Shown here in pieces: positions 5,946 through 64,000 of a DNA stretch of 64,000 nt. The notes under the pieces were generated by a model, which was not told where the DNA came from, ran no database searches, and saw only the letters and a program-made list of their open reading frames with translations. The translations under genes were made by a program, and so were the position numbers. The first letter of the stretch is position 1. Each line of letters starts with the position of its first letter. The stretch comes from Xiphias gladius (Eukaryota; Chordata; Actinopteri; Istiophoriformes; Xiphiidae), in NCBI RefSeq assembly GCF_016859285.1, contig NC_053402.1, forward strand, positions 20,438,556 to 20,502,555, given 5' to 3'.

Positions 5946-8777
5946 AAGTACTTTTATTGTGATTTCACCTCTTGGGTGTACCTGTTCAAAGGAAACGAGA
6001 TAAACATGACTAACCCTGTTCCTTATTTCCTCGTAGATGGCCTTTCTCTCTGATTCTCAGCACTGTGCAGGAAACCTTTCTCCCATGAGATACAGGCTTA
6101 TAAATAAGTTTATCTGGTGACTATACACTCGGCAATGTTGCATCAACAAGTAGCAAGATTAAAAAAAACATAATCTGGTTATTATTATTACATTATATTG
6201 GACAGTTTGCAGGCAGCTCAGCGCCACACTGTGATGGCTGACGTCGTCATTTGTTTTGTTATTCATGTCTGGGTTTATTGAGCATTGCCTTCACAGTGTT
6301 GCTTATGTTCACTGAGCTCAAGACAAAGCGTATCCCTTCTTGTAATGAAAGACCGAGGAGAAGCCTGACGGTGTTTAACAGACTGTTAAAATATGGCGAC
6401 ATTTTCACTTCGAGCGGTTAGGTGTTTTCACAGCCCCTGCGAGGGTTCATCTGTCTGCACGCTTATAACCTTGAGGTCACATGACAAGGAGTGTTCCCAT
6501 AAGGTCAGGCGCTAATGAATCCTCCCTGACAGGGGAAATGGTACATTATAGGAAATTAATACAGAATTCCCGCTAAAAGTCTATTGTTTTTATCTCCCGT
6601 TTTGACCGTGGAGCCAACTCGCCATCAGAAAATAACACAAAACAGGAGGTGGCCACTTCCAAAGTTCATGAGAGACTCACTTGTTTTCATCTGACCAAAA
6701 AAAACAAACAAAAAAACCCAGTGAAAAATAATTATGATAATAATAATAAAGATAGGTCATGGTCTTGTCTTACCTCAAGATTTTTTCTACAAGTGCCTGA
6801 TTTCTGGAATGTGTTTTTTGTTCTGCAGTGCCACGCTCGGTTCTTATCTTTCCGTTTCCTTTTGTTGTTTCTGGGTCTCCTCCCTCCTCTCCTGTGGTTG
6901 ATGGTATAACTTAAGGCACTGACCCAAAGATGTGTACATTAAATACAAGCGGTCAAACTGAGAGGCTGTAAAATAGAATAAAAATAAAATAAAATAAATA
7001 GAAAGCACACTTCAAGCCAAGGACGCATCTATGCACTCTCTTTGCCTTTAACATAGGCGTTAACAGCTACTACTGATGCTGCTAAGAGGGAAGAGGCATA
7101 GTATTCTCTCAGCTGCTTTTTTCCCCCCCTCCTCCACAAACTGAGGCCGTCTCTCTCTCTTTGCCTAGTGATCCGCAGTGTGTGAATATGGTACACCTCT
7201 CAAGCCCTACCCTAAAACTGGTTTAGGTCATGCGAGACAACATCCCATTTCCTAAAAATGAACTAACAGCCCATGACTTCATCAGAATGAAAACTCAACA
7301 GTTGGTGTGTGTCGTCTGAAATGTGATTTACCTGATGTCTCATTGTTGTATTTTAAAATCTTTTGTACATACTATCTTAATATGTAACATACTGTATTGT
7401 GTACATTTGGAATTGCTTTTGAGTATAACTAATATGAAAATGACTGGACTTAAAGGTTGTCCGCCTGAAACCATTTCCCTCATGGCTGTGTGCTTTAAAG
7501 CAAGGTTATATGATGTAAATAAACAGAACTATGTTTAAAAAAAAATAATTCTTCACATGCGTGTTTTTGAGATTGTGGGGTTTTTTGCAACACACACACT
7601 TTTGAAGGGAGGATGAGGCTCATGTTTTGCAGTGCAGGCAACTTTAAATAAAAAGGAGCTGAATGATGCCCTCTAGAGGCTGCAGATGAATGCGATCTCT
7701 CCAGGCCCTCTGGCACGGACCCCTACGCACACGAAGGAAACTTCATCTGAACAACTGAGGCTCTACCTTTTAACTACTCGATTAGTTTAATACTAAAGCA
7801 TTCTGTGAAAATTAGCTGTAACGCTGGGAACCTACTGAAACTATGGTCTTTCTGCCTAAATACAGAGCTTTGGTAAACACCATTTGCAGCAGATTCTTCA
7901 GCTTTTGACATGATCAACACTTCTCTTATGAACAAAATTTATTTCAAAAGCAGGGGAATAAACCCATTTTTCATTTCTCCTTGCACAATATCCTTCACAG
8001 ATTTAATTCAGAGTGGGTTAACCTTCACAAAGACCATCTCCATCATATAATCCCCCCCCCCCCCCCTTCCGGCTACAATCTGTATTCCTCCTATCCAGAG
8101 CCCACTGATGTTTTCTCTCTGGCCCATTTCAGGATCCTCACAAGAAAAGCTTTGTGACTATTTGCATGCTGACAGAAGCCACGTACAGTAGCTTCACACT
8201 GCAGCTCTTGAGAACCGCTTCCTGTGTTTTAGAGCAGGCTTTATGAACACATGACAGATGTAAGCAGAATTTCAAAATTTTATTTGAATTTATGTTAACA
8301 CACAACTGTTAAAATGTTCACTCTGGAATTTACTTCTGCAAAACAGTCTTTGCAAGCTGGCCCAATTCGTTGTAAATTTTTTTTTTGGGGGGGATGCAAC
8401 ATACAATGTTTGTTTTTAAATTCAAAAATTAAACAGTTTATGTAGATGGATACCTACGAAGTTGACCAGGGAAACAAAATATTCTCGTGTTGTCAAATAC
8501 ATTCTCTTTATAAAAAGAATCTTATTTTTGAAATATTTACATTTCTTCTTGAAAAAAGAAAAAAAAAACTGAACAGGACACCCTTACAGTCCAGATAGAA
8601 AAGAAACGTCAAGTATTGCATTGCAATTCAAGGACTTCATCGTCCAGATGACAAACTGATTACAGAAAACTGATGACAAATTTTTTTTTTGTTTGTTTGG
8701 TTTTTTTTTTAACTGCAGTAGTCCCGTGTTTTTTTTACCTCTTTCAAAGGGGGTTTTCGCTACTTGACTAGTGTCCT
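5946..8777. other. Convergent intergenic region between arhgap23 and hexim1
   Basis: No coding exon was recognised. The stretch probably holds a distal arhgap23 3' UTR (AATAAA at 7518-7523) on the plus strand and the hexim1 3' UTR on the minus strand, where TTTATT at about 8279-8284 is a candidate reversed poly(A) signal. A C homopolymer lies at 8052-8066. The two genes are transcribed towards each other here. Confidence 0.55.
8052..8066. repeat. C homopolymer (15 nt)
   Basis: Uninterrupted run of 15 C between hexim1 and arhgap23. Confidence 0.9.
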
Positions 8778-9899
8778 CTAGTTGGTAGCGACCTGGGCCC
8801 TGTCCTTGTTGGGCTGGTTCTGCAGAAGGAGCTCTGTATTTTGGGCCCTCAGTCTCTCCAGTTCCCTCTCCAGCTCTCTGAGCCGGACCAGGGAGCTCTC
8901 CACGGTCAGACCCCCGGGCTCCACGGCGCTCCTCAGCCGGTTGTTCTCCTCCTCCAGCCGGGACATGCACTTCTCCAGCTCCAGGTACTCCTGCACCAGC
9001 TCCTGCTTGGTCATATTCTGCAGGCTCTCGACGTGGTACATCTCGTAGGTCTCGGAAAAGTCTCTCTGGAGAAACTCCCCACCTGCGTTCCCGGGCCTCC
9101 CGATACCGTCGCTGCCTCCGCCGCTGCCATCATCATCGTCCTCCTCGTCGTTATCGAAGAGTTCCTCCTCGCTGCCCGTGTCCTCCATGCGGCCACCGAC
9201 CCCCGAGGGCCGCCTGACCCCTGTCTCGGTGTTGAGGTCGGGCTCCTCCCGGTCATGCTCGTCCATCAGGAACTGTGTGGTGTTATAGGGGGCAACTGGG
9301 AGCCCTTTGGCGAACATCTCCTCTCTCAACCGGGAAGCCCTGGCCGTCTCTTTCTCCTCCAGGGCTTTCTTTTCCTCCCAGGAAAGTTTGTAATAAGGCT
9401 TCCAGTTGCGCTTCTTCTTGGAGTTCCTGCGCCTGTGTCTCTTCTTGCCCAGACGCGCGTCTAAGCCAGTGTCGGAGTCGACGGTCAAACTCTCCTCTTG
9501 CACCTGGCTCAAAGTCTCCTGCAGCGGTCTGTCTTCGCCGTTTTTCCCCTGCGAGCTGAGGCTACCGTCGCCCGCTGCATGAACGCCGTGCTTCTGGTAC
9601 GGCTGAGCGGCAATCGGGCACTTTGGGAGCTCGTTTCCGGCTGCTAAGGCAGGGAACACCTCCCTCTGACCGCCTTTCATTTGCCATAACTTGTCTGTGT
9701 TGATATCCCCACAGTTCTCCGCCCGCTGCTGCCGCTGCTGCTGCTGCTGCTGCTTCTGGTCTCTCTGTCGCCCCCTGTCGCCGTTCACCGGTCCACCACG
9801 GTTGATGGCTGGGAGATGCTCCAAAGCGTCTCCGCTGCTCCCACCTGATGGGCTGCCTGAAGTTTTCATGTGATGGGTCTGCTCCGCTGGCTCTGTCAT
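8778..9899 (-). CDS. hexim1: HEXIM1, 7SK snRNA-dependent inhibitor of P-TEFb (single exon, 373 aa)
   Basis: HEXIM proteins bind 7SK snRNA and, as dimers, hold P-TEFb (CDK9-cyclin T) inactive in the nucleus, which restrains RNA polymerase II elongation. The whole reading frame is in one exon, as in the mammalian genes. Visible parts in order are a variable N-terminus with a Gln-rich run (about residues 48-58, coded by CAG repeats), the arginine/lysine-rich RNA-binding and nuclear localisation segment KKRHRRRNSKKKRNWKPYYK (152-171), the invariant P-TEFb-contact motif PYNTTQFLM (204-212), an acidic stretch (243-257) that masks the basic region in the free protein, DFSETYEMYHVESLQNM (280-296), and a leucine-heptad coiled coil (about 297-360) used for dimerisation and cyclin T binding. 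The ATG is the complement of 9897-9899 and the stop is TAG. All key motifs are intact. hexim2 is mammal-specific, so hexim1 is the natural call. Confidence 0.97.
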   Translation of the reverse strand: MTEPAEQTHHMKTSGSPSGGSSGDALEHLPAINRGGPVNGDRGRQRDQKQQQQQQRQQRAENCGDINTDKLWQMKGGQREVFPALAAGNELPKCPIAAQPYQKHGVHAAGDGSLSSQGKNGEDRPLQETLSQVQEESLTVDSDTGLDARLGKKRHRRRNSKKKRNWKPYYKLSWEEKKALEEKETARASRLREEMFAKGLPVAPYNTTQFLMDEHDREEPDLNTETGVRRPSGVGGRMEDTGSEEELFDNDEEDDDDGSGGGSDGIGRPGNAGGEFLQRDFSETYEMYHVESLQNMTKQELVQEYLELEKCMSRLEEENNRLRSAVEPGGLTVESSLVRLRELERELERLRAQNTELLLQNQPNKDRAQVATN

Positions 9900-10234
9900 C
9901 CTGATGATCCGTTCTGACCGCTCCGCTTTAGCGCATGTTTAGATGATGTTCATGCTCTCGAAACTGACCTTCGAAGTTCGTTAAAAGACGTTAAACTTAA
10001 TTTGAACGAAAATATACTTATTCCAGAATGAGCCGAAGTCAGTAAAGAAAGTTTGACTTTTGACGTTCAAAAATAAACTTTCATAAAGTAAAACTAAACT
10101 TCCGAACAGTAAACACTTGTTACTCCTCCAAGGGTTTGTCAGAGCAACTGTCGCTAACTACCATTAACTGTTTCGATGCTGTCAGAGTTGTCGTTCACCC
10201 AGAGACCGCGTTACGCCTTCACAACAGTGTCCAG

Positions 10235-28097: not shown

Positions 28098-31000
28098 CAG
28101 AGTGGTGTCCAGTTCTCCCAACGAATGATTTTGCTTTAGCAGATCCAAAAAGGCTTAAAACTGTCCAGTTACTGACAGGAAAGTCAAACATAGGAGTTAA
28201 AACCATGAAGCTTCAATATAATGAATTTGTAAGTAGAAATATGTTTTTGGTCATTTTAGCTTCATGACTGTAGAGATGTACATGTGAGTCTGTTCGTCCA
28301 CCGGTTTGGTCCAGACTAAAATCTGAACCACTACTGGATGGATTAATATTAAATTTGGTAGAGAAATTCATGGTCCCAAGAGGATGAATTCTACAAACTT
28401 TGGTGATCCTAGCACCGTCATCAGAAGAAAATTTCAATTTTGATTTGGTTCAGGGCTGCAACTAACAATTATTTCCTTAGTGCTTAATCCGCAAATTATG
28501 TTTTAATCAATCAATTAATCATTTAGTCTATGAAACGTCAAAAAGTAGTGAAAAATGTCCATCACAACTTCCCAGAGCCCATTGCTTCTTTTTTCTGACC
28601 AAAAGCCCAAAACCAAAAAAAATAATTACATTAAAATCATATATGATAAAACAGGGCAGAATCCCCATATTTGAGAATCCGGAACCAGCAAATATTTGGT
28701 ATTTTTGCTTGAAAAATGAGTGAAACAAGTACCCATTTATCAAAATAGTTGCCAATTAATTTCCCTCCATCAACTAATCTATTAATTGACTAATAGTGGC
28801 AGTTGTACTTTGCTTTATGGCTAGATACCTGCAAAACTAATGCTATTTTCATCAGTGTCAGCTGTACTTTGTGTTTAGTGCCAATTAGCAAATGTTAGCA
28901 TGCTAATACACGTAAAATGTTTATATTTATATTTTATATTTTACAACCAAAAGGTCAGAATGAGTAGAAGAGATACGGAGCCAACGTCACAGAGGCACAA
29001 ATCTGGCAGAAATGTAAGGTTTTGTTTTTTTTTTCGCCTTGCCTATTGTTTTTACCATAAACGAGGGAATATCAAGCCTGCAGTTGTACCTTTTGTGTGC
29101 AAAACACTTTGGAGCCATAGACGCAAGACTGAACCAGTTCTGTGTCAACAGCTGCTGCAGTTTTCCCAAAATACTTTTTCACAGATAGAACCAGAAGACC
29201 TGGAGCTTTCAAAGGATGTAAAATTTGTTGTGGTTGTGTGAAGACTGAGTCGGGTACAAACTAAAGTACACCTAAAGTAGCACAGCCAATGCAGCCCAAA
29301 GCTGGGAAAGTGTATTTTATTAACATCTAAATGTTAGCTTTGCCATTATGAGTGTGCTGAAGTTAGCATTTAGCTAATACAGCCTCACATAGCCACTAGC
29401 GTGGCTTCAGACTCTTTAGTCTTGTTTGTTTTTAAACATCCTACAACTCAGCGCTCCAAATTATCCTGTGCAGCCAAACCCCTTGAGATCATAACTTACA
29501 TAAAACCCATTAGAGGGGCCTGGTCTTAGAGTGTCAACAGAGAGGGCAAAAACTAAAGGTCCGGCTTTCATTTGCCTGCCCATTTGTGTGCTGTAAGTCA
29601 TAAGGCTGCAGGTTAAAATTATCCTGTTGAGAATCCTGAATAGTGGATAGTTCAACTGTAAAGGGTGTAACATTTTACAATCGCATGACTATGTCATTCT
29701 GCTTGGTGGGATTTATGATTCCCTTATAAAACCCCTGACACTTGACCTTTAGCTGCTTTGCTCTACGTGTTGGTGTCCAGCCAAAGCTGTGTTTACTCAA
29801 CAACACAAAAACAGTTTTAGCCTAGACCCTCCTTCCCTTTCTTCTCCTTTCTTCTCCCAGTCGCTGTGACAGAGGTGGAGTGTGTGCGTGAAGGCTGCCA
29901 GTCCGAGGCGCTGAGGCGGCTTTCCGGGTCGTTGCCGGAGAACCGGTGCTTCACGGTGGTCTTCAGGGGAGCCAGGAAGAGCCTGGACCTGCTGTGCTCC
30001 AGCGAGGATGAAGCCCAGCACTGGGTGCGAGGGCTCCGCACTTTAAAGGATCGAGTGGCCAACATGACTCAGAAGGAAAAACTGGACCAATATCCTGCCC
30101 AATTTTCAATAGACTAGAATAAATATAGTGTATAAATATAGTTTAGCTGAGGCAGCATTGAGGTGTTGATTGACTCTGCTGTCTCATGTGCCATCCCACA
30201 TCCACAGCATAGCTGAGGTGAAAAGTAATGACCAGATAAAAAAACCTCTGTCTAAATATAGTAGGACTATCACTGTTAATTACAATCCCTCACAGCCAGA
30301 GGATAATATGAGTGTAGGTATCAGGCAGTGTGTAACATTAAGACTACCACGGCTCCTCTCTCTTCCGCTCCCTCATTCTCTGCTGACACATTTTTAGCTT
30401 TGTGAATACATAAATCATCAGGGACGTTATCGTGTTAATGCAGTCTTGTTATATTGTTGATTATGTTTCGCACTGTTGACTGTCAGTAGCCTGGGTGGGG
30501 ATTGTCTTACACAGTGTCAAGTGTGAAAGTATGGGCTTTCTTGTGTTGCACAACTGCATGTGCAGGTGACAATGAACTAAACGTAGTCTCTCGTTGCTGT
30601 TGAGTCTTTCATGCAGTTACATTACATTATATTCATTTGGCAGACACTTTTGTCCAAAGGGACTTACATTAATTGCATTGTACCTGCATAGAAACAAGAG
30701 CTAGGTGTCATCAAAACTGTAAATACACCCACTCTTGAACAAACAACTGAGAGCCTGTTGAGTGGTATTTATAACTAAACAAGTTTCAAGAGATTTGAGG
30801 CAACATATTTCAACTCGTGGCTTTTTGGTTGAACAGATCACAGTGTTAAACGATACTGGCATCAACAGAAAGTGAATGATGCTTTTCACTGTGTGTGGCT
30901 AAACATCTGCCTTTTGATTTGTTTTCAGTTAGTGCAATAGCTGAAACTGTCAGTGGGTGAAATATTTGAACTTTTGGAAGTTTGGAGAGCATCATCATTT

Positions 31001-34000
31001 AAAACAGCACTCCACTGATTTAGCATTGCACAACTATAACAGGGTCGACTCACGATGGTCATTAAAAAGGATCCGAGGCAGCCGAAAAACAGGGATATTG
31101 CCTCCTTTATTCCACGCATTCTTCTTCCCTGTTAAAACCTGGTGTCTACATTACCCACTATTGGGCTATTTCTTTCACATGTGCCACATGCAATAGTACT
31201 GCCCCATAATTGTAAACAGACTTTGATGTGTAAAATCAGTGGAATTTCCCTTTAAAAATCACATTTCTTTGTGCCTGTGTGCATACATTTGGGTCAGTAA
31301 ATGTTTATCAGTACATCAATTAATCACAAGGTGCAGTTTCAATTATTTTACTGGCACACATTAGAACAGTAAGTGGGCAGGTAAGCTAAGAAAAAAAACC
31401 CCCAAACATTAGGTTGCATGGGATAATAACAAGGAAAATGATACAATATGACAGAGCAAAGAGTGTCTGATGTCTCTCCTGGACCACAACACACACATAA
31501 GGATGCATAATCCAACTAAGTATACGATTTGAGTGTCTTGTATTGAGTGTATAGTCTTTAGTTTTTGTCTGGTTTCATTCCTTAACTCTCCACACTTGGA
31601 TCCGAGGCTACCTAAGGCGAGCCGATCAGAACCAGGACGGCAAGATGAGCTACGATGAGGTCAAGCGGCTGCTGCAGATGATCAACATTGACTTGAGTGA
31701 GCAGTATGCCCGCTCTTTATTCAAGGTCAGGGCCGTGTGAGTTTTAAATCACTGCACAACGTCAATCCAATATATAATCCATATCAGGTGAGCTCTGAAA
31801 GTACAGTGTGTAAAAAAAGACAGAGAGCAGAAGCACAGAGATGCAGAGTTGGTGATAGTTCTGCTAGTTAGGGTTGGATGACATGGACTCCGGAGGCCAG
31901 AGTCTGTGTTCAATTACCAAGCCGGCGACCCCCCTCCACATCTTTATCCCCTCCCTCTTATCTTCCCCACAACAAATCAAGAGCCAGTTATTTCTTTATT
32001 GTAGGGGATTACTGCCTGCTGTGTCCTTCAGCTCTCCATTACCGCTGAATTGTCGGTTTTTATGCTCCTTCCAAATGCAATTTTCAATTCTGACCCTCCT
32101 CAGAGAACCCTATTTTTAATGTAAGTGCGCGCAGATGGTTTAATTTATTACTGAGATACTTTCCCCACGGGGAATTTGAAGCACTCCCAGAATAAAATCA
32201 CACTGTGCTTGATGTGTGTTCGATTGTTTGTCTTTTTTAACCCGTCCCTCTCCCCCGTGTCCCAGAGGTGTGACCGATCAGGTGATGGCCGCCTGGATCA
32301 TATAGAGATTGAGGAGTTCTGCAGGGAGCTGCTGCGACGGCCCGAGCTGGATGCCGTGTTCAGACACTATTCGAGTAACGGTTGTGTGCTCTCCACGGCT
32401 GAGCTGCGCGACTTCCTGGGGGACCAAGGCGAGGACGCTTCACTGAATCATGCTCAGAGCCTCATACTCACCTATGAGCTCAATGACTGGGGTAGGTCAT
32501 GAAAGCAGTCATTACAGGATTCGAAGGGAACAAACCACAACATCTTCATACTGATCCACAAAATAGTTATTTAGCCTATCCCCGTGAAAGCGTTTGCTAT
32601 TTTAAACACTAAGGCAAAATCCTCTGTTGCACAAAAAGTGATGCACTTCATGTCTCCAGCAGTGAGTGTGGTCTGTTAAGATGACAATGTTATGATCACT
32701 GAAAGAAAAAAGGCCAAAAAGGTCTTATTCATTAGTTCAACCCGCAGTAAATAATAGCAAAACAATTAAAGGATATGAAATTAATACAATGAATCCACCC
32801 TAAGCTGGACATACCAGACCAAGTAAGGGTGTAGCAAGGCCCTGAGTGCACTGATCTGAGCAATGGTGCCTTTTGTTGTTGTAAGTTCATCTGTTAAATG
32901 TTAAATTGGAAGAATATGTTATTTGTTCACACAAATTTGGCATCGTCTCACTTTAAGGAAGACGGTATTTCAGCTAAATGAGCGAGATGCTTGGAAGACT
33001 GAGATTTGGTGGGTGGTTGAGTAAGAGAGGTTCTGGGAATTAGCGACCTCCACCAGGGAGGTTATGTTTTCCCCCCGCGTCTGTTTGTATGTTTGTCAGC
33101 AGGGTTATGCAAAAAGTACTGAACCAATTTGCACCAAACTTGGTGCAGGGACGGGGCTTGGGCCAGGGAAGGACCAATTAAATTTTAATATGAATTTGAA
33201 TTTTTTTACCTCTGAAGTTTGGTGTATGTGCATTGGCCTTGGTGGAGGTCTGCGCTCTACTGATTGCATTTTCTAGTTTGAATATAAAACAAGAAATAAC
33301 CTGAATTTTTTTCTTCAGCTCAAAACAACAATACGCGTATAAAAGTACATATTTGAAGAACACAACTCTGACAAATTGTAAAATAAACCTGGTGTGTGCA
33401 GTGATTTCGACACTGTTACACTGCCAGGTGTAGGGCAGTGCAGAAACACCACAACAAATACAGCCTGGAATTAATTACGTCAAAATGAATGATAAACAAA
33501 GTCTTTTTTTCCTAGACTGTTAAGAATAAGTGCCTGTTAGGAAAGGAAGCCGTGATTTAGTATAAACCATCTCATGTCTTAGCTTGTCTTCCATCTACCC
33601 TAGTCCTATTTTATGCTGTCTAAACCCTTTAATTAAACTCTTACCAATTTTGCTGGGAAAACCTGGCAAAAGATAAGAGACCTGATGGAAACACTTTGCC
33701 ATTTATTGCAGCTCAGAAGAACCAGTTCATGACCCAGAATGGTTTCACCATGTACATGCTGTCACTGGAGAACGATTTGTTTAACCCCGACCATGCCAGA
33801 GTCTATCAAGACATGAGCCACCCCCTGGTTCACTACTTCATCTCCTCATCGCACAACACCTACCTTACCAAGGACCAAGTCACCAGCGCCAGCAGCACAG
33901 AGCCGTACATCAGGTATTTTCACACTGACCCATCAAAACACCATCAAACGGCTATTCGTGTTTTCCCGATCTATCCAGAAACCTGCACACAGTGATGGTC

Positions 34001-41201: not shown

Positions 41202-48625
<7,424 letters not shown>

Positions 48626-58750: not shown

Positions 58751-60187
58751 GTGGAAAGCTTAATTTTCCACGCCGACTCATACCAAAACTAAACTTAGCT
58801 TCTGCTTTGACTTGTACACACCCAGAGTAATTCACGTTTGACTACTTCAGTTTTGTTAAACTGTGAATAACAGAACACTTCAGATGTTATATGTCTGAGT
58901 AATGAAGCTGCTGAGCTCTGTCAACTTGCACTTATCAAATCAACATAACATGACCTCATGCAAATACTTTTGTAAATCATTCAACTGTGTTGAAATTCAT
59001 ACACAAGTTGCCGTGTTGCTTATTTTTTTTTGTGTGTTTGGGTTGTTTTTTTTTTTTTTTCTCAAAACTACCAACTCTGTGCCTAATTATGCCATCTGTT
59101 TGGTTTGCAGTTTTTACAAGGGATTTCTCCCTATTGATACTAAAGGGTACAAACAATAAATTTGATTCGTTCTCAGGTGTACTATGTATATTTATCATGA
59201 TTTTTTCACAACTGTTAAAAATAATCTTTCTCCTCTTACTTTGTTGGTTGATGATTCACCCTTCACGTTGTTGTTGTTGTTGTTGTTGTTGTAAGGGTAA
59301 CACCCACCAATATAAGCAGCAATAACCAAATATATTTGTTTACACTTACAAATTGTTTGACTTTAAAAGATCATATATGAACCTAAAATTACTTTGGTAG
59401 TAATTACTAAAATGTAAACTCAATATTTGTAAGCTAATTTGGAGTTTTACTACTTATTGGTATCACTTATTTATTGTTTTTTGTTTTTTTTTTTTTGTTC
59501 AGAGTGAAATCCTGCATGCTGTTTTCTCAGTTAAATGCCCGGAAAACCACCCGCTTTCCCTGCCATAACATTTTTGTGTTTGTTTATATATTTTGTTATT
59601 GCGCACTGGACACTCTGCAAATTACACGTCTTACCTGCACCTGAACGCAGCATGCGGCGGGGAGGACGCGCAAGAGGAGCGGGCTCACCGAAAAATGTAA
59701 AAGGGGGGGAAAAAAAAAAAAAAAAGAGAGAGCTTTCTGATTAGTTGGCGAGTAAAAAGGGGTGTGATTTGTTTTTTGTTTTTTTTTCTTTCCTCATAAT
59801 TTTCTCCTACCGGACGGCAGTTGTGCAGCGACGCCCCCCCCCTCCCGGCGGCGGCGGCATGGAGGGCAAAGTGCGCAAACAGATACTGAACCGGCGAGGC
59901 CGAAACGCAACACGTTAACTGCGTCAAAACAATGTTACGACGAGTGGTTTTTGGCGGCTGTGCCCCCGTGACGGGTGACGATTAGCCGGCTAGCCAACCC
60001 GCGAACCTCAGCTCACTTAAAAGCCCGGTTGGCTAGCTTACTTACCCTGATTTTTTTTTTTAACTCGACGGCAGGTAAAAACGACATATTTAGCCGTCGT
60101 CGTCCTAAAGTGGAGGGTTTTTTTTTTTTTTGTTTAGTTTTTTTTCAGGAAGGCTCGGGGGTTAATTTACCCTCGCTCCGGGAGACG
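58751..60187. other. retsat-cdk21 intergenic region and cdk21 5' UTR
   Basis: A (GTT)n repeat lies at 59267-59292. From about 59640 the sequence becomes GC-richer with CpG-containing words, consistent with the promoter and 5' UTR of the kinase gene. No other gene was recognised. Confidence 0.55.
59267..59292. repeat. (GTT)n microsatellite
   Basis: Pure GTT trinucleotide run of about 8.5 units. Confidence 0.9.

Positions 60188-64000
<3,813 letters not shown>

Follow-up and report, generated by a model that had tools for sequence, protein, structure and literature searches.

A predicted AT-AC U12-type intron separating the PH exon from the first EF-hand exon in a teleost PLC-delta gene, at a position shared with eight paralogs of the same genome

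Minor introns are a familiar feature of phospholipase C (PLC) genes, being reported in 60% of them in the available portion of PMC6865273. The closest described case is human PLC delta, in which the intron between exons 3 and 4 (intron 3) is a U12 intron with GT/AG ends whose spliced to unspliced ratios were measured in human cells, according to the available text of PMC2603472. The exon 4 reverse primer printed in that text encodes CLRKAD, residues from the beginning of the first EF-hand exon, and human intron 3 is therefore taken to occupy the same position as the intron described here. The two are alike in being U12-type and apparently in their position; they differ in that the human intron is GT-AG, whereas the intron described here is AT-AC. 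As given in the consulted portions of the respective papers, AT-AC introns make up about 24% of minor introns in mouse and 22% in human (PMC6717393), depletion of CENATAC affected 92% of A-type versus 24% of G-type minor introns (PMC8280824), and zebrafish zrsr2 mutants retain 218 of 662 U12 introns (PMC9501576). The term "plcd" does not occur in the main texts of PMC8280824, PMC9501576 and PMC6717393, nor does "phospholipase" in the main text of PMC2831892. Among the matches listed in literature searches by name, none links PLCD or PLCH names to terms for minor introns, and absence from supplementary tables, U12DB, IAOD or MIDB is not claimed.

The window, by which we mean the whole 64,000-nucleotide stretch of Xiphias gladius DNA that was analysed, lies at C3:20438556-20502555 of a 690.8-Mb genome and contains a PLC-delta gene on the + strand, with PH (weak), EF-hand and Y-domain exons recognized by Pfam and X-domain exons by a PI-PLC-X search. 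The gene is flanked by coding stretches for HEXIM (8778-9938, - strand), N-myristoyltransferase (NMT; 46870-47515, + strand) and a protein kinase (59972-60418, + strand). In the trees described below, the six delta-like genes of the genome fall into three pairs, and the window gene pairs with a copy on C463 with support of 100/100. A first-pass annotation of this DNA had called the gene plcd3. This label fits both the pairing and the presence of HEXIM and NMT, which we take to be part of the human PLCD3 neighbourhood as well; the name plcd3 is used here as a putative label.

U12-type introns have a 5' splice site with the consensus [AG]TATCCT(T) and a branch element with the consensus TTCCTTRAY. 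In plcd3, the exon encoding the C-terminal part of the PH domain (29861..30089, + strand) ends ...KEKLD CA|, with AAACTGGACCA as its last letters at 30089. It scored 22.1 bits against Pfam PH_12, under the cut-off of 27, and matched the solved PLC delta-1 PH domain 1mai. The exon encoding the first EF-hand (31596..31725, + strand) begins with TTGGATCCGAGG at 31596, read as |T TGG ATC CGA..., scored 50.1 bits against Pfam EF-hand_10, above the cut-off, and has an ordinary GT donor at its 3' end. Between these exons lies an intron of 1506 nt in phase 2 (30090..31595, + strand), which opens with ATATCCTGCC and closes with TTCCTTAACTCTCCACAC. Its 5' splice site, ATATCCTGCC (30090..30099, + strand), contains ATATCCT followed by G at +8, where the consensus has T. 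In the branch element TTCCTTAAC (31578..31586, + strand) the A lies at 31585 and its distance to the acceptor is 10 nt; the terminal AC occupies 31594..31595 (+ strand). The intron thus combines a donor of the form [AG]TATCCT with a U12-type branch element near the 3' splice site, and its first two bases are AT and its last two AC. The donor, branch element, 10-nt distance and AC end named in the first-pass annotation are each present, and direct reading of the letters bears out both its U12-type assignment and its AT-AC ends. The same intron also contains an inverted repeat with arms of 24 nt (30998-31021 and 31233-31256; 75% complementary, spacing 211 nt), possibly a small mobile element.

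The predicted AT-AC splice 30089/31596 would join ...CTGGACCA to TTGGATCC; the divided codon is completed as CA|T TGG and the product reads KEKLDHWIRG. The 21-residue product of the join aligned without gaps to solved PLC delta-1 structures (E 4e-10), the structure aligned across the join being, we presume, that of the rat enzyme. The alternative, an ordinary GT-AG or GC-AG splice between these exons with the AT-AC motifs there by chance, was addressed by a scan for GT-AG and GC-AG pairs that keep the frame and contain no stop. Donors were taken from 29940-31499, exon starts as far as 31689, and the pairs were scored with a rough matrix. Such joins are plentiful (83 pairs in the scanned region), but the junction was kept by none of the 83. 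The top-scoring pair, a GC donor at 30002 with an exon start at 31607 (sum 0.0), would cut off the last part of the PH domain as well as WIRG, with which the EF-hand exon begins. Only three pairs lie no more than 36 nt from each of the two edges, and their shared exon start is 31630; these sum to -9.4, -10.7 and -15.7, and conserved residues are lost in each. For scale, the same rough matrix gave 3.8 for the donor of the next plcd3 intron and 10.5 for the acceptor of the PH exon. As the junction is also fixed by the paralogs and by solved delta-1, an ordinary splice is very improbable, and the earlier proposal that the conserved LDHW is restored only by the AT-AC splice held for every join scanned. 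If the plcd3 intron is read through, a stop follows after 9 codons (3 to 28 codons across the nine genes compared below); with so early a stop in a retained intron, the catalytic part of the enzyme would be lost.

Motif frequencies were compared with 60 first-order Markov simulations of the window. The heptamer [AG]TATCCT occurs three times on the + strand and four times on the - strand (5.45 expected per strand), and TTCCTTAAC once on the + strand and not at all on the - strand (0.33 expected per strand), the sole exact copy on the + strand being the one inside the plcd3 intron. The 8-mer RTATCCTT was found three times across both strands against 3.56 expected; the plcd3 donor, with G at +8, is none of these. 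Each motif alone is therefore at chance frequency in the window. An isolated donor-like site, ATATCCTTCACA, at position 7988 (+ strand) is probably a chance occurrence, since RTATCCTT is at chance frequency. What lies above chance is the presence of both motifs at two edges set beforehand by protein homology, together with related signals at those edges in the paralogs. From base composition, the probability at the homology-fixed edge is about 1.6e-4 for the donor, and about 7.5e-5 for the branch element with 13 allowed places.

A search of the genome with the EF-hand exon, which scores best candidates only, returned nine loci including the window. Upstream DNA was taken for the other eight and a PH exon was found in all of them, giving six delta-like and three eta-like genes; the labels delta-4, eta and PLCL used for paralogs are our assumption. 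Identity of the eight paralogs to the window gene is 33-75% over the PH stretch and 28-72% over the EF-hand exon. The first-pass annotation had pointed to the same position in related PLC genes as a comparison, and in this genome a U12-type donor [AG]TATCCT is found there at all nine loci, at the same codon and in phase 2, with CA|N ahead of a conserved TGG. The first base of the donor is A in five genes and G in four. As a control, [AG]TATCC was looked for at the donor of the next intron and found in none of the nine genes.

Five of the nine introns are AT-AC: those of the window gene (1506 nt; best match to TTCCTTAAC 9/9), its closest paralog on C463 (170 nt; 8/9) and the three eta-like genes on C18 (1513 nt; 9/9), C21 (238 nt; 8/9) and C7 (579 nt; 7/9). 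The remaining four are GT-AG and belong to the two delta-1-like genes, on C14 (234 nt; 7/9, the eighth base being C, not A) and C5 (197 nt; a weak 6/9, in a gene whose exon matches solved delta-1), and to the two delta-4-like genes, on C16 (321 nt; 7/9, 35 nt from the acceptor) and C467 (248 nt; 8/9). In seven of the nine genes a match of at least 7/9 has its eighth base at a distance of 10-17 nt to the acceptor, and the branch elements of the other two, C5 and C16, are weak. In the C16 gene (L020/L012) a strong U12 donor, GTATCCTTT, is accompanied by an AG acceptor without a clear U12 branch element nearby, the match 35 nt away being taken as too distant. This intron may be drifting toward U2 type. 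Beyond the nine loci, the junction was compared in two PLCL-like genes, L001 and L003, where the open frame runs across it and the intron is therefore absent; PLCL-like L002 and L004, a PLC gene on C8 and the PLC beta, gamma and epsilon genes lie outside this comparison. The C8 gene is an additional delta/zeta-like PLC (C8:20510000-20533999; L026, L027, L040) that carries X-domain exons as well as an EF-like one; a PH exon and a first EF exon were looked for in 20 kb upstream and neither was found.

On this evidence, plcd3 almost certainly contains a genuine AT-AC U12-type intron between its PH and first EF-hand exons, descended from one U12-type intron that predates the divergence of PLC-delta and PLC-eta. 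Its motifs, position and reading frame, and its sharing among paralogs, can be read directly in the genome. That it is spliced by the U12-type route, and what becomes of retained plcd3 transcripts, are predictions from the DNA. An alternative is that the plcd3 intron is excised by the major (U2) spliceosome, as certain AT-AC introns of sodium channel genes are (PMC2831892). The sodium channel introns, as described in the available portion of that paper, all have G at +5, whereas plcd3 has C there in its ATATCCT; moreover, the plcd3 branch element is perfect and U12-type donors are common to the paralogs, which makes U2 excision a highly unlikely account. Independent gain of U12 introns at one codon in several PLC genes is scarcely credible, as no point in its favour was found and codon and phase are identical in nine of nine genes, delta- and eta-like alike.

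The genome was also searched for U12, U11 and U6atac snRNA genes using Rfam cut-offs. One gene of each exceeded the cut-off (125, 104 and 131 bits, respectively), and one further partial U6atac match fell below it. The U12 gene, at C3:7782086-7782239, carries GAGTAAGGAA, which pairs with the plcd3 branch region at -9.1 kcal/mol with one A bulged. Duplex energies with U11 and U6atac were alike for U12-type donors and an ordinary donor, that of the next intron scoring equally well, and in this same non-discriminating calculation the best U11 register of the plcd3 donor was not the canonical one. In the proposed U12-type mechanism, U11 and U6atac would recognise ATATCCT, U12 would pair with TTCCTTAAC leaving an A bulged, the bulged branch A would attack the donor, and the exons would be joined as CA|T TGG; a retained intron would give a PH-only fragment or a substrate for decay. 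The plcd3 intron is thus expected to depend on the minor spliceosome, in agreement with the U12 intron of human PLC delta (PMC2603472) and with U12 intron retention in zrsr2 mutants (PMC9501576), both as described in the available portions of those papers.

For the direction of the subtype change, trees were built, in one analysis from 11 genes with as many as 636 residues, several genes being partly covered. The best trees weakly group the delta-1-like with the delta-4-like genes (bootstrap 53 and 68 in the 11-gene analysis and 42 in another), and this grouping implies one change from AT-AC to GT-AG if AT-AC is ancestral. A pairing of delta-1 with delta-3 was not rejected (AU 0.51 and 0.31); for delta-3 with delta-4 the AU test gave rejection (0.030 and 0.018), whereas the KH and SH tests did not. 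Given the split among paralogs, these genes would be expected to depend to unequal degrees on CENATAC, a factor selective for AT-AC introns. A further reading, in which the delta-3 and eta genes kept a slower, CENATAC-dependent AT-AC form, the delta-1 and delta-4 genes went over to GT-AG, perhaps in one event, and the split matters for regulation, is speculative and on balance doubtful. Against this reading, the portion of PMC9501576 available to us reports for zebrafish zrsr2 mutants that the U12 introns which are retained do not differ in GT-AG versus AT-AC make-up from those which are not, and that they are shorter; the 1506-nt plcd3 intron exceeds the mean length of the introns retained there.

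The AT-AC introns reported to respond to CENATAC resemble the plcd3 intron in their AT-AC ends and U12-type donor and branch element (PMC8280824, from the portion consulted). U12 introns are reported to switch between AT-AC and GT-AG subtypes, and 36 U12DB clusters hold both, in the text available of PMC2831892; like these clusters, the PLC genes present one position with AT-AC and GT-AG members, and they differ in that the contrast is among paralogs of one genome. The first-pass annotation had stressed the rarity of such an intron. An AT-AC minor intron is indeed seen, but its rarity was overstated in context, as PLC genes are rich in minor introns and the position is common to nine paralogs. 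The plcd3 intron is ordinary in kind, one copy of an old U12 intron that the delta- and eta-like PLC genes found in this genome have in common, and the point added to the known U12 intron of human PLC delta is the AT-AC/GT-AG split among paralogs.

For the fish gene, the likely gene model of plcd3 is settled at a junction for which the scan gave no workable GT-AG join. For the family, a single genome in which one old U12 intron occurs in nine genes, in five as AT-AC and in four as GT-AG, is a natural test set for subtype against splicing efficiency and CENATAC dependence. Should the regulatory reading be true, altered CENATAC activity would change the relative levels of the PLC isozymes inside a single cell.
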